This document shows, in pieces, positions 367-63,011 of a DNA stretch of 64,000 nucleotides. Positions within the stretch are counted from its first letter, which is position 1. Each line of letters begins with the position of its first letter. Below the pieces are notes generated by a model, which did not search any database, was not told where the DNA came from, and saw nothing but the letters and a program-made list of their open reading frames with translations. A program made the translations under genes and the position numbers. Source of the DNA: Pectobacterium colocasium (GTDB lineage: Bacteria; Pseudomonadota; Gammaproteobacteria; Enterobacterales; Enterobacteriaceae); contig NZ_CP084032.1 of assembly GCF_020181655.1 (NCBI RefSeq), forward strand, positions 2,170,001 through 2,234,000, read 5' to 3'.

Positions 367-639
367 ATACCCGTCATACTTCAAGTTGCATGTGCGTTGG
401 CTACGCTACTCGGCACACTAACGTGTACCTCGCCCCGTTGGGGCCGCTGCAAGCAGCGTTCAAATCTGCCTCTGGCAGATTTGTCAGTCACCCGAATCAC
501 TTACTTAAGTAAGCTCGTCGGGATTCCCTCTCTTGCCGCGTTACGATGCTCATAAATGAGCATCGCCCTAAAGGGCTAACGCTTCGCGTTATTCAAAACG
601 AACTCGTTTTGTCCTGAAACTCGAATTATTTAGGGTATA
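367..639 (-). repeat. ERIC element enlarged by two hairpin-string inserts
   Basis: The ends are the ERIC/IRU termini: atacccgtcatacttcaag at the left and ctcgaattatttagggtata at the right, and the centre (about 484-540) is the ERIC core with cacccgaatcacttactta. The intact 127-bp copy at 31207-31333 gives the reference. Here the element is 273 bp because about 78 bp (near 406-483) and about 71 bp (541-611) have been added, one in each arm. Each insert is a run of short perfect hairpins: gcccc/ggggc, cgctg/cagcg, caaatctgcc/ggcagatttg in the first; gatgctcat/atgagcatc, gccc/gggc, taacgc/gcgtta, caaaacg/cgttttg in the second. It fills most of the asnS-pncB gap (193-648); open frames across it look fortuitous. 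Confidence 0.85.
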
Positions 640-648
640 CGGGAAAGC

Positions 649-4865: not shown

Positions 4866-4971
4866 CGGTGGTAGGGGATAGAAGAGTAAAGCGTCCGCGC
4901 CAGGGATGGCGCGGCTCGAGCTTACAGGGATGTACTTGCAGCGTCTTTACGATCTATCCCTTACCACAGCG
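4866..4971 (+). repeat. 105-bp palindromic intergenic repeat, copy 1
   Basis: Imperfect terminal inverted repeats cggtggtaggggatagaaga and the complement of gatctatcccttaccacagcg enclose gagtaaagcg...cgtctttac arms and a central gcgccagggatggcgc hairpin. The same layout recurs at 12259 and 27975. It lies in the pyrD leader region. It has no coding capacity and is best seen as a non-autonomous miniature element. Confidence 0.8.
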
Positions 4972-5061
4972 TGACGTAACGTTATTATCAAGCGCTAATC
5001 CACTATTGCTTACTTTCAGCGTAGGCAAGATACCTTTGCGATAGGGATCTCAGGAGACAAT

Positions 5062-12218: not shown

Positions 12219-12258
12219 TTCATTCAGATTTCTGGCAAGCTTATTTCTCGAACGAGAA

Positions 12259-12439
12259 CGGTGATAATGGGATAGAAGAGTAAAGCGTTTGCGCCAGGGA
12301 CAAAAACGTCAGGAACGTTTTTGAACGTCGCTAGCGACGGCCCTAAAAGGGTGAATCTCAGGGATGAGATTCATATCTGCGCAATCCGAGCGTACAGGGA
12401 CGTATTTACAGCGTCTTTACGATCTACCCATTATCACCG
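12259..12439 (+). repeat. 105-bp palindromic repeat, copy 2, with a 78-bp hairpin-string insert
   Basis: The ends cggtgataatgggatagaag and gatctacccattatcaccg match copies 1 and 3. After gcgccaggga, bases 12301-12378 are extra and consist of hairpins: caaaaacgt/acgtttttg, the palindrome cgtcgctagcgacg, ccct/aggg and gaatctca/tgagattc. The element then resumes with gcgcaatccgagcgtacag. The insertion point is in the loop of the central gcgcc hairpin. It occupies most of the uup-pqiA gap. Confidence 0.8.
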
Positions 12440-12522
12440 CACGATGTACTTTACCTGTGCACTTATGGCATTGGTGACGATGCTTTCAGTCAGAAGCTGA
12501 CGAGTTTTGAAGGAGAGGATGT

Positions 12523-18540: not shown

Positions 18541-19119
18541 TCAAGGCTTCTCATCCGTCCCATCACCATAAAAGAAAACGCCCCTGACTTACGTCAAGGG
18601 CGTTTGGGATGAGTATATTGGGGGGATTGACTCGCGGCGTCCTGCCGCTCGCCCTGCGGGCCGCCGTTGGCGGTCCAAAACGCCAATCCTGTCGTTTTGT
18701 CGAACCCTGTCAAGGCTTCTCATCCGTCCCATCACCATAAAAGAAAACGCCCCTGACTTACGTCAAGGGCGTTTGGGATGAGTATATTGGGGGGATTGAC
18801 TCGCGGCGTCCTGCCGCTCGCCCTGCGGGCCGCCGGTGGCGGTCCAAAACGCCAATCCTGTCGTTTTGTCGAACCCTGTCAAGGCTTCTCATCCGTCCCA
18901 TCACCATAAAAGAAAACGCCCCTGACTTACGTCAAGGGCGTTTGGGATGAGTATATTGGGGGGATTGACTCGCGGCGTCCTGCCGCTCGCCCTGCGGGCC
19001 GCCGGTGGCGGTCCAAAACGCCAATCCTGTCGTTTTGTCGAACCCTGTCAAGGCTTCTCATCCGTTCCAGCACCATAAAAGAAAACGCCCTTAACTTGCG
19101 TCAAGGGCGTTTTCTTTTA
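18541..19119 (-). repeat. 169-bp tandem array downstream of tRNA-Ser
   Basis: Copies begin with tcaaggcttctcatccg at 18541, 18710, 18879 and 19048, an exact 169-base period: three full copies and a partial fourth that runs into the tRNA-Ser terminator. Each full unit holds a copy of the terminator-like hairpin aaaacgccc...gggcgttt, the segment gatgagtatattgggggg, and a string of four hairpins: gcggc/gccgc, gccc/gggc, ccgcc/ggcgg and caaaacg/cgttttg. The copies are almost identical; copy 1 has ccgccgttggcgg where copies 2 and 3 have ccgccggtggcgg. Reading from the tRNA, the array lies downstream, in the same relation as the 178-bp repeats after E. coli tyrT. Confidence 0.9.
19075..19119 (-). 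terminator. tRNA-Ser terminator, bidirectional
   Basis: ataaaagaaaacgccct and its exact complement agggcgttttcttttat form a 17-bp perfect stem with a 12-base loop immediately after the tRNA 3' end. A and T runs on both sides mean it could stop transcription from either strand. The repeats to the left hold damaged versions in which the second arm ends after gggcgttt. Confidence 0.9.
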
Positions 19120-19121
19120 TA

Positions 19122-19211
19122 TGGCGGTGAGGAAGGGATTCGAACCCTTGATACGTTTTCACGTATACACACTTTCCAGGCGTGCTCCTTCAGCCTCTCG
19201 GACACCTCACC
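19122..19211 (-). tRNA. tRNA-Ser, anticodon GGA
   Basis: Minus strand reads GGTGAGGTGTCCGAGAGGCT from 19211, anticodon loop CTGGAAA, a long class II variable arm (TATACG...CGTATC), T arm GGGTTCGAATCCC and a discriminator followed by genome-encoded CCA at 19122. Acceptor arms ggtgagg/cctcacc pair fully. The 90-base length fits a serine tRNA. It reads UCC and UCU codons. It corresponds in position to E. coli serX, beside ycdX. Confidence 0.97.
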
Positions 19212-27974: not shown

Positions 27975-28079
27975 CGGTGATAATGGAATAGAAGAGTAAA
28001 GCGTTTGCGCCATGGATGGCGCAAGCCGAGCGTACAGGGATGTATTTACAGCGTCTTTACGATCTATCCATTATCGCCG
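27975..28079 (+). repeat. 105-bp palindromic intergenic repeat, copy 3
   Basis: cggtgataatggaatagaag ... gatctatccattatcgccg forms the terminal inverted repeat, with a central gcgcc/ggcgc hairpin. This is the cleanest of the three copies. It lies 19 bases after the murJ stop, between the convergent genes murJ and argS. Confidence 0.8.
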
Positions 28080-28104
28080 CGTGACTGTCTTTGCCTGTAA
28101 CGCA

Positions 28105-31109: not shown

Positions 31110-31206
31110 AAATAGTGAAGAATGTGTACGTAGAGTAATCAGAAAGATAACATTGGTTGAAAGTTAAAATGGCATGTCACGTTATTCATGCCATTTTCTT
31201 TTACTG

Positions 31207-31333
31207 TATACCCTAAATAATTCGAGTTTCAGGCAGGCGGCAAGCGAGTGAATCCCGATGAGCTTACACAAGTAAGTGATTCGGGTGAGTGAACGTAGCC
31301 AACGCACCTGCAATTTGAAGTATGACGGGTATA
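31207..31333 (+). repeat. Intact 127-bp ERIC element
   Basis: tataccctaaataattcgag at the left, the core gagcttacacaagtaagtga in the middle and ttgaagtatgacgggtata at the right; the outer ends are imperfect inverted repeats. The length is exactly the usual ERIC length. It lies between yecM and cutC and is the reference for the enlarged copy at 367-639. Confidence 0.92.
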
Positions 31334-55745: not shown

Positions 55746-55853
55746 ATGTATGGCTAACGGTGCGGTCGGACATCTGCGGTGACGCAGATCCCTGTGGCAG
55801 GGGCGCGCTATATAATTAATGATGCCTTCGGGCATGACTGGAGATAACTTTTG

Positions 55854-62128: not shown

Positions 62129-62248
62129 AGTAATTGATTTATCTATTGATGTTAACCAGTTACTTCTTAATGGTTAAAACAAAGTGTGAAATCTGTTCCA
62201 TTTGTGATAATTACGCGCGGGTTGAGGCTGGAAAACGTGGGGGAGTTG

Positions 62249-62260
62249 GCTAAGCTTAAA
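62249..62260 (+). promoter_or_regulatory. Sigma-S-type extended -10 of sdsR
   Basis: gctaagcttaaa fits the sigma-S extended -10 pattern (KCTAYRCTTAA) and lies 7 or so bases before the inferred SdsR 5' end. There is no clear -35, as is common for sigma-S promoters. Confidence 0.7.
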
Positions 62261-62264
62261 TCTA

Positions 62265-62366
62265 CAGGGCTAGCACAGCTTGTATAAATGCCAACTTTTA
62301 GCGCACGGCTCTCCCAAGAGCCATTTCCCTAGACCGAATACAGGAATCGTATTCGGTCTTTTTTTT
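62265..62366 (+). ncRNA. sdsR: SdsR (RyeB) small RNA
   Basis: Hfq-dependent, sigma-S-controlled RNA that represses outer-membrane protein and stress-related mRNAs in enterobacteria. The body from about 62285 (taaatgccaacttttagcgc, acggctctcccaagagcc, atttccctagaccgaatac) is almost the E. coli SdsR sequence, with the terminator gaccgaatac / gtattcggtc and eight T. The middle hairpin ggctct...agagcc is two bases shorter than in E. coli. The 5' end is inferred from the promoter; the 5' twenty bases are diverged. It follows yebY as expected. Confidence 0.92.
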
Positions 62367-62687
62367 GGTTTAAAACCCTAATGAATGAAAAACGGCGTTC
62401 AGTCGTCTATTTTCTGATTTGTTTTTTCTTTAAAAAAGAGAAAAATTGGCTGCAACGGGGCTGTTTTATAGCATGCCTGAAAATAATATCTTGCTAAAGA
62501 TTGTTAGACGTGCGTTAATAGCTCGTCGGTTTGATTCGCAGACCTAAAAGCAGTTTAGTAAAGCAGTTCTCATCTCCAAGTGTTATCCATAGATATCCCT
62601 TCTTTTGAGCCTCCTTCTCGTTGCTAATTAAATTCTGTGCACAGGCCCTATTTGCCGGAAGGCGCTATACAAATTAAGGTAATCTCT
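62367..62687 (+). promoter_or_regulatory. Long leader region of the cold-shock gene
   Basis: 321 bases between the SdsR terminator and the cold-shock gene with no other gene. CspA-family genes usually have a structured 5' leader of over 100 bases, and this gap could hold one. I do not see an unmistakable cold box. Confidence 0.4.
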
Positions 62688-62900
62688 ATGTCTAATAAAA
62701 TGACTGGTTTAGTAAAATGGTTTGACGCGGGTAAAGGTTTTGGTTTCATTACTCCTGACAACGGCAGCAAAGATGTATTCGTACATTTCTCTGCTATTCA
62801 GAGCAATGATTTCAAAACGCTGGACGAAGGCCAAAAGGTTGAGTTCACCATTGAAAATGGCCAGAAAGGCCCAGCAGCTGGCAACGTTGTCGCACTGTAA
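62688..62900 (+). CDS. CspA-type cold-shock protein
   Basis: 70-residue OB-fold RNA chaperone. The ATG at 62688 gives [20 protein letters not shown]; an in-frame start at 62637 would add 17 residues unlike the family. RNP1 is KGFGFITP and RNP2 VFVHF; the ending [11 protein letters not shown] resembles CspA, CspB and CspG more than the constitutive CspC and CspE. Which paralogue this is, and whether it is cold-induced, cannot be settled here. Confidence 0.93.
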
Positions 62901-63011
62901 GACGCCGCGCCGTAATAAAGCTACACTAAGCTGCACTATAAATTTGAAGTGATGCTTTTCTTGCGATAGCGATGATGGTTTAAGCCGGAGCAGTCAAGAG
63001 AAGTAATAAAG

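Follow-up and report, generated by a model that had tools for sequence, protein, structure and literature searches.

A four-hairpin module matching the core of tRNA-linked repeats lies in ERIC elements, Ysr224-like palindromes and tandem tRNA-Ser units of Pectobacterium

The window analysed here, 64,000 bases of the 4.9-Mb one-contig genome of Pectobacterium colocasium (G000:C1:2170001-2234000), contains strings of short hairpins in an ERIC element, in a palindrome of about 105 bp and in tandem units associated with a tRNA-Ser gene. A first-pass annotation had reported such strings of "three or four" hairpins in these three settings; the strings are present as it described them, with the correction that each holds four hairpins. 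The six strings are copies of one homologous four-hairpin module of about 70 bases. The relevant features are given below, with scores from two covariance models, R1 and R2, whose E-values are rough, since calibration was shortened:

367..641, minus strand: ERIC element hosting two modules (from orthologous-locus comparison)
412..483, minus strand: module in ERIC site 2 (R1 53.2 bits, E 2.7e-10; R2 65.6 bits; fold z -5.7)
544..611, minus strand: module in ERIC site 1 (model match 547-611; R1 58.5 bits, E 1.6e-11; R2 65.7 bits; fold z -5.1)
4888..4995, minus strand: Ysr224-like copy without module, loop intact (RF02770 74.7 bits, gathering 70)
12242..12452, plus strand: Ysr224/YPAL-like palindrome hosting a module, about 105 bp when empty
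12301..12378, plus strand: module in that palindrome (model match 12301-12370; R1 70.3 bits, E 2.6e-14; R2 82.6 bits; fold z -4.7)
18634..18699, minus strand: module in tRNA-Ser tandem unit (R1 28 bits, E 2.4e-4; R2 35 bits; RF00391 35.1 bits at 18611-18744)
18803..18868, minus strand: module in the next tandem unit (R2 34.5 bits; RF00391 34.8 bits at 18780-18913)
18972..19037, minus strand: module in the tandem unit closest to the tRNA gene (R2 34.5 bits; RF00391 29.2 bits at 18954-19076)
19122..19211, minus strand: tRNA-Ser(GGA) gene, upstream of the tandem units in transcription and on the same strand as their modules
27998-28104: Ysr224-like copy without module (RF02770 75.7 bits, gathering 70)
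31206..31329, minus strand: ERIC copy without modules, used for comparison (G000:C1:2201206-2201329)

The module consists of hairpins A, B, C and D in fixed order, with conserved spacers and covarying stems. Most of the strings printed read as A (CAAA...TTTG), spacer AA(C), B, C (GCCC...GGGC), spacer GA and D; the start is CAAA, and hairpin C keeps a CCC..GGG stem in nearly all copies, while a few weak genome matches (e.g. L035, L039, L043) are partial or do not form hairpins. The recurring stems singled out earlier find their place in this scheme, 'caaaacg' as hairpin A and 'gccct/agggc' as hairpin C. When folded as RNA, the palindrome insert and the two ERIC inserts form exactly these four hairpins, and none of 200 shuffles folds as well; for the longer tRNA-Ser unit (18612-18730) the fold is less clear-cut (z -1.7), and 11 of 200 shuffles do as well. 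Simple clustering of hairpins (stem of at least 5 or 6, gap of at most 8) returned one cluster of three in the window and was too blunt, hence an ordered descriptor and covariance models were used instead. The mechanical A-B-C-D descriptor finds two strings in the window, at 12301 (score 56.9) and 412-483 (60.2), and misses 544-611 and the tRNA-Ser units, while 20 dinucleotide shuffles give three matches, the best scoring 52.0.

Covariance model R1 is the stronger test. It was built from four well-aligned copies, the tandem pair 4824339/4824414 and two ERIC copies, none of them in the window, because a MAFFT alignment of many copies misplaces parts of A, C and D; the other copies were aligned to R1. 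At E ≤ 0.5 it gives 59 matches in 63 sources (two of these overlap others on the opposite strand and look spurious, but are kept in the counts), including all six window strings, with the three tRNA-Ser units at E 8.6e-5 twice and 2.4e-4. Its successor, R2, was built from 45 Pectobacterium copies, excluding the tRNA-Ser units. In the 55 distinct rows from the window's own genome (alignment A4, which includes two likely spurious matches) 21 of 24 base pairs have changed on both sides, with 263 doubly changed cells against a shuffled mean of 76, and 94.4% of the cells are paired against at most 44.0% when the partners are slid. The corresponding values for 74 distinct rows from other genera, none of which was used for R2, are 22 of 24 pairs, and 96.7% against at most 44.5%. 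Both alignments were fitted to the model, and that of the other genera (A6) includes a few overlapping opposite-strand matches (L313, L298). The order, the spacers and the covarying stems show that the strings share common descent. Repeated generation of hairpins by slippage or template switching, without common ancestry, would agree with the large differences in stems among copies and with their nearly perfect arms, such as arm-to-arm correction would yield. Against it stand the A-B-C-D order, the AAC and GA spacers, the CCC..GGG stem of hairpin C and the CAAA start that the copies have in common, the ability of a four-copy model to retrieve the rest and of its successor to retrieve E. coli rrB, the near-restriction of GGA to loops A and D across genera, and the 18 of 24 order-level genomes without the module; we regard it as extremely improbable.

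The module is separable from its hosts, as had been supposed: it occurs in many unrelated contexts, and clean empty sites are seen both in other copies of its host repeats and in an orthologous position. The states of the ERIC locus at 367..641 were read by eye in the 24 scorable genomes among 25 of the genus. Eleven have no ERIC and only 9-12 bp between the flanks, three have an ERIC without module, three have one module, two have two, and five show other forms (a site 3 module with a lone A hairpin in G017, collapsed forms in G019, G014 and G011, and a remnant in G010). The host behaves as an ERIC, a palindrome of about 127 bp that is either there or missing as a whole: 128 bp lie between the flanks in the module-free G021 and G024. 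The empty-site comparison used a 115-base core of an ERIC copy in the window. The 105-bp palindrome, previously recognized only as a repeat family, can now be identified as Ysr224/YPAL-like, as its two empty window copies match RF02770; the interrupted copy is not among the matches to this family at gathering, and the name YPAL is applied on what we take to be a likeness. Eight copies of the palindrome in the genome are filled, seven of them 91-95% identical to the eighth, that of the window, and many others have their halves about 2 bp apart. Sequence like the insert also occurs alone elsewhere in the genome.

The junctions resemble each other. In the Ysr224-like family the empty TTGCGCCAGGGA|TGGCGCAA corresponds to the filled TTGCGCCAGGGA[module]TGCGCAA, a clean insertion after the "GA" of the GGGA loop, and the ERIC junctions are CAGGA|AGGCGG at site 1, CTGA|ACGC at site 2 and AAGGA|ATCCC at site 3; tRNA T-loops share this type of junction. 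One or two bases of the empty site are missing beside the module at ERIC site 1 and in the palindrome. Comparison by eye of empty and filled ERIC and Ysr224 sites revealed no target duplication, and the ends of the module at these sites, CAAA and GAGTA (or TCGTA, TTGTA, TCATT), are not inverted repeats as in classical MITEs. In other genera, 71 of 76 distinct contexts have A directly before the module (GA 56, CA 15); 20 of the 76 read TTCGA, with ATCC to the right in 12. Of the genome's own 88 copies, 79 follow an A (GA 50, TA 26, TTCGA 4). The TA cases are mostly what we call type II, i.e. standalone or tandem units between CATAAAAAA repeats beside a terminator-like hairpin. Further hosts include a family of hairpins of the form CGCGT..ACGCG and, in locus L316 around 1501-1567, a dRS3-like repeat that reads GAAAGCCGGA|...|ATCCAG.

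These comparisons bear on the possibility that the module inserted only a few times long ago, once per ERIC or Ysr224 site, and was later copied only by its hosts and by unequal recombination. Copies are indeed alike within a host class, as the Ysr224 copies illustrate. In three ERIC copies (1189001, 3168887 and 4737151) the centre is missing and a hybrid module remains, its left part from site 1 and its right part from site 2, which implies recombination between two modules of one ERIC. The number of tandem units also varies at a single orthologous type II locus, which by eye ranges from none (G014, G019) through partial and single to two and more units, in agreement with the earlier description of the module as recombining; the A and B stems of neighbouring units there often differ. 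On the other hand, the orthologous ERIC exists in many states, including module-free ones with near-identical flanks, type II copies have no common host beyond CATAAAAAA, and the arrival of the module in so many hosts would be left unexplained. We consider this scenario a real possibility, somewhat short of an even chance.

The third setting proved not to be a foreign host. The module is, as judged from sequence and structure matches, the core of the tRNA-linked repeats (TLRs), known in E. coli as rttR/RtT and rrA/rrB/rrF, a family that the first-pass annotation had missed when it knew of no description linking the strings. According to PMC8144298, E. coli K-12 has 22 TLRs at ten loci, and the mark of a TLR is a stretch of 18-19 bp that repeats the 3' end of the tRNA or rRNA gene lying upstream; rrA, rrB and rrF lie between two rrn terminators, the rrnB T1-T2 spacer is widely used in plasmids, and a claim that RtT modulates the stringent response was later retracted. 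At the two E. coli TLR loci examined, of the ten, R2 finds the four-hairpin core: the match to the rrnB T1-T2 spacer is strong (67.1 bits, E 7e-16), and that to the three rtT repeats is weak (18.2 bits, with an E-value of 4e-4 that refers to a search of small size). The window tRNA-Ser units share with RtT the layout GATGAGAA, TTCGA|module|GAGT..AATCC, in which the module (as at 18634-18699) occupies a T-loop-like site TTCGA|..|AATCC. They differ from it in scoring below the RF00391 gathering threshold of 45, as does L300 (42.8 bits), whereas the three E. coli repeats, taken as a control, score 133.8-137.5 bits; E. coli rttR, for its part, lacks GGA in loops A and D. By position and strand, the window units lie behind a tRNA gene, as TLRs do; the ERIC and Ysr224 copies do not. 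The copied 18-19 bp are not seen, on reading, in the window units: all that these retain of the T-arm is GGGTTCGA..AATCCC, beyond which the likeness ends. A longer copy is present in L288 and L297. The tandem units form a TLR-like locus and represent the usual home of the module, so that two, not three, of the hosts named before, the ERIC and the palindrome, stand as unrelated to it. These two carry the TLR core. They and the terminator-associated copies differ from TLRs in having no copied 3' end and in lying outside stable-RNA operons; what the module shares with TLRs is the four-hairpin core with two GGA loops. Two sub-threshold Hammerhead_II matches (28.8 bits, E 0.012, against a gathering score of 37), at 18541-18610 and 18710-18779 on the minus strand, fall in the part of the tandem units outside the module and are probably due to chance. 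Elsewhere in the window, at 62225-62959 and 55759-55844, Rfam matches correspond to SdsR/RyeB with SraC/RyeA, the cspA thermoregulator and KDPG-aldolase RNA.

In other genera the module is often found behind a tRNA gene, interrupting a copy of the T-arm as GGTTCGA[module]GAGTAATCC. A tRNA or tmRNA lies within 300 bp, not always upstream, in 17 of 29 loci from the gammaproteobacterial class, a non-random sample of the best-scoring ones. Over all 50 loci scanned (the ARAGORN scan left out 12 of the 30 loci L235-L264) the number is 24, and 23 of these have a module on the same strand there; L256 is opposite, L313 has also opposite-strand copies near its tRNAs, and L298 counts by virtue of its second copy. 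In G033 the module follows 5S in an arrangement like that of E. coli rrn. L289 (1391-1640) presents a whole tRNA-Ser-like sequence with a module in the T-loop, directly before an intact tRNA-Ser gene.

The module is by no means limited to the places where it was first noticed. R2 finds at least 88 copies in the genome of the window at E ≤ 1e-3 and 101 at E ≤ 1; such copy numbers are lower bounds, as the best 150, 86 or 13 candidates per genome were scored, depending on the search. Under E ≤ 1e-3 the module is present in 35 of 59 genomes searched as relatives: in all 25 of the genus, with 32 to at least 86 copies each, in 4 of 10 in the rest of the family (at least 51 copies in G027) and in 6 of 24 in the rest of the order. 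With the stricter filters used it was not found in the other 24, including 18 of the 24 order-level genomes. Across the class, with the best 13 candidates per genome scored, at least 136 of 369 genomes and at least 111 of 272 genera have it. In E. coli 669 of 5426 genomes have a place where at least 80% of a query made of an ERIC with module is covered, and the two ERIC inserts examined are this module (87.6 and 79.9 bits). Such an ERIC with module lies between ybtP and ybtA on plasmid pH222-1 (L318) and between dxs and yajO in strain 104 (L320). A plasmid search with the palindrome insert returned 25 records, all from Pantoea, one of which, tested with R2, scored 73.8 bits; a phage search with an RtT-like unit gave no match. 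The type II core pattern, sought over named genomes, occurred only in Pectobacterium and Brenneria (23 stretches). In Pectobacterium polonicum (L265, 2541-3161) nine matches to it follow one another in 74-bp steps as mostly near-identical tandem units, and this array adjoins a terminator-like hairpin.

Insertions within ERIC were reportedly treated by Sharp in 1997 and in a companion note of that year on foldable interruptions, by their titles as a matter of ERIC only; two E. coli ERIC inserts are the module described here. Our literature search, which had most subscription journals outside its scope, turned up no publication that connects TLRs with the inserts of ERIC or Ysr224, and the word "ERIC" is absent from PMC8144298.

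The loops carry a further conserved feature. Among the 74 distinct copies from other genera, with loops taken together with their closing pairs, GGA is present in loop A of 64 and loop D of 63, compared to 5 for B and 6 for C; the complement TCC appears in 4, 0, 1 and 0 of the 74 in A, B, C and D, respectively. Loop D reads CANGGANG in 41 of 74 and CAGGANG in 17, and the two GGA motifs of the 62 copies that have both are 41-59 nt apart (median 49). A reading of GGGA as a GNRA tetraloop is ruled out, because the base before GGA varies. The E. coli RrA, RrB and RrF RNAs bind CsrA in vitro at about 100 nM, RrB RNA with three GGA motifs changed shows no shift, and deleting rrA/B/F has modest and mutually contradictory effects on CsrA phenotypes (PMC8144298). 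The CsrA SELEX consensus is RUACARGGAUGU and the CsrB element CAGGA(U/A/C)G (PMC7652899).

In the window, ANGGA-type loops are found in the palindrome insert (cagga in A, ggga in D) and in the tRNA-Ser units (cagga in both). The two ERIC inserts have none: the loops of 412-483 include 'aga' in A and 'gtta' in D, and those of 544-611 likewise lack GGA. Only 23 of the 55 distinct own-genome rows of A4 have both GGA loops. By host, according to a crude loop finder that undercounts long loops and misses the CAGGA that the tRNA-Ser units have in their long loop A, both are present in 8 of 8 Ysr224 copies, 0 of 27 at ERIC sites 1 and 2, 5 of 8 at ERIC site 3 and 11 of 26 of type II; the T-loop units have both in 0 of 4 cases, and the remaining copies in 7 of 15. 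GGA is also absent from A and D of E. coli rttR, the best-known TLR, and 4 of 5 distinct rows of G027 in A6 have loops of the AAA/GAAA/GCAA type; most copies read in L238, L246, L253 and L261, together with G027, have such loops in A and D. Empty Ysr224-like copies (e.g. L009-L012) hold GTACAGGGATGT, a 12/12 match to the CsrA SELEX consensus, and by this match the host family itself may be a CsrA/RsmA ligand, apart from its central GGGA hairpin. In L242 (1257-1384) a TwoAYGGAY RNA match (38.6 bits, gathering 43) lies just upstream of two opposite-strand modules; it falls outside the module and was rejected as its identity.

Two known groups of RNAs come close to the module. Its four hairpins align on the same strand with those of AaHKsRNA22 (RF02902) in 5 modules of 4 loci (25.5-30.8 bits), and other loci reach 36.1 bits, all below the gathering threshold of 39.8; the difference is that the Rfam name denotes an Aggregatibacter sRNA and that its consensus A and D loops have no GGA. 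With CsrB/CsrC/RsmX-Y-Z (clan CL00106) it shares strings of hairpins and GGA loops, and some loci give weak rsmX, RsmY or RsmV matches. It differs from them in having two GGA hairpins and ties to tRNA/rRNA genes or MITEs and, in contrast to these RNAs, we know of no dedicated promoter for it.

Pairing statistics can be read at the level of RNA or of DNA. G-U pairs make up 0.85% of the pairs in all 81 rows without the C-closing pair (15 of 1770) and 2.0% with it (37 of 1846), compared to 3.9% (23 of 594) in the stems of 35 tRNAs that lie in these loci, a scarcity as compatible with constraint on the DNA or correction between the arms as with RNA. Away from tRNA genes, 30 modules are sense and 18 antisense between co-directional ORFs (9 and 5 at ERIC loci); this count excludes three T-loop units and follows a crude longest-ORF rule, with host labels that contain errors (e.g. 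3298884, a Ysr224 copy labelled ERIC; 7 of 8 Ysr224 copies are labelled correctly). So weak a bias toward the sense strand does not favour a sense-RNA function away from tRNA genes. There is no clear replication-strand bias either (18 plus and 29 minus in the first half of the chromosome, 20 and 21 in the second, with the origin assumed).

DNA-level constraint is a live rival, and with it a mobile DNA element whose recombinase would read hairpins on single-stranded or extruded DNA and plant the module 3' of GA, often in hairpin loops, with GGA loops as part of the DNA signal and CsrA binding as incidental. The clean, fixed-orientation insertion without target duplication (ERIC and Ysr224, by eye), the several independent hosts (ERIC sites 1, 2 and 3, Ysr224, the CGCGT..ACGCG family, the dRS3-like repeat) and the few G-U pairs speak for it. 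A preference for extruded hairpins, suggested earlier, holds for the Ysr224-like and tRNA T-arm insertion points, which are hairpin loops, but not for those in ERIC, which lie in arms. REP/BIME, RAYT, IS200/IS605 and PATE elements also have short hairpins, make no target duplication and are dispersed. The module resembles them in these respects and differs in its four-hairpin order, in having no GTAG/CGTC foot and in the lack of a Y1 (HUH) transposase, which was not found in the window genome by a search for PF01797. The same search was negative in 16 other genomes of the genus and positive in 8 of 25; with 17 of 25 lacking PF01797 and 25 of 25 carrying the module, RAYT or IS200 was rejected as its motor, and the associated RAYT-like transposase once proposed finds no support. 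The ends of Y1 elements in two Pectobacterium genomes, G023 and G021 (L125, L126), show no resemblance to it by eye. Moreover, no new insertion was caught within a species, and RrB binds CsrA as RNA (PMC8144298). On balance we find it unlikely that the module is primarily a mobile DNA element.

A role as backup terminator or protector of mRNA 3' ends, spread through its usefulness downstream of genes, would fit the type II copies, which by eye abut hairpins like those of intrinsic terminators and toward which the right-hand ORF points in 18 of 24 copies so labelled, as well as the location of E. coli rrB between rrn T1 and T2 (PMC8144298). However, it needs neither two conserved GGA loops, nor a fixed order of hairpins, nor insertion in a T-loop, and the orientation of the module to genes is mixed, which leaves it quite improbable.

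What is observed directly is the class-wide presence of the module, the like junctions, the clean empty sites and the two conserved GGA loops in most copies from other genera. The reading that we prefer, and hold to be probable with its conditional steps included, is that the strings are one element, the TLR core, which in Pectobacterium has also been placed in ERIC, in the Ysr224-like palindrome and beside terminators. Its ancestral job may have been that of an RNA freed from tRNA or rRNA transcripts and presenting a CsrA/RsmA dimer with two GGA hairpins, which would tie CsrA activity to stable-RNA synthesis; copies other than RrB would then be expected to bind CsrA too. Judging from the junctions, it would have inserted, rather than been lost, 3' of GA (tRNA T-loop TTCGA|ATCC, palindrome GGGA|T, ERIC GGA|ATCCC and CTGA|ACG), in fixed orientation and without target duplication, while the terminator-linked type II copies, following TA between two CATAAAAAA repeats, may have spread differently. 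Thereafter copies would have multiplied with their hosts ERIC and Ysr224 and by tandem duplication, and those without GGA, e.g. at ERIC sites 1 and 2, may be passengers kept as hairpins. In short, the module would be an RNA associated with tRNA and rRNA genes that has two CsrA sites and has left its original locus. Counting against this reading are the GGA-less copies at ERIC sites 1 and 2, in G027 and in E. coli rttR, the 26 of 88 own copies that follow TA, the weak sense-strand bias away from tRNA genes, the scarcity of G-U pairs and the contradictory deletion phenotypes. A bolder version, namely a self-spreading element of the whole class, born in a T-loop, bearing a hairpin pair for the CsrA/RsmA dimer, moved by an enzyme to sites 3' of GA and scattering dozens of potential CsrA-titrating sites via the ERIC and Ysr224 MITEs, seems doubtful to us.

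The analysis joins items that had been described apart: TLRs/RtT, the rrnB T1-T2 spacer, AaHKsRNA22, ERIC inserts and Ysr224-like inserts. They have an anatomy in common, including two conserved GGA loops, from which it can be predicted which of the copies in ERIC elements and TLRs ought to bind CsrA. The clean empty and filled sites provide a way to ask how a 70-base non-coding module moves; since it is present in so many places, both its spread and its function are testable. With many copies per genome, the module could affect the dosage of CsrA/RsmA, and its insertion in ERIC may influence the band patterns obtained by ERIC-PCR.
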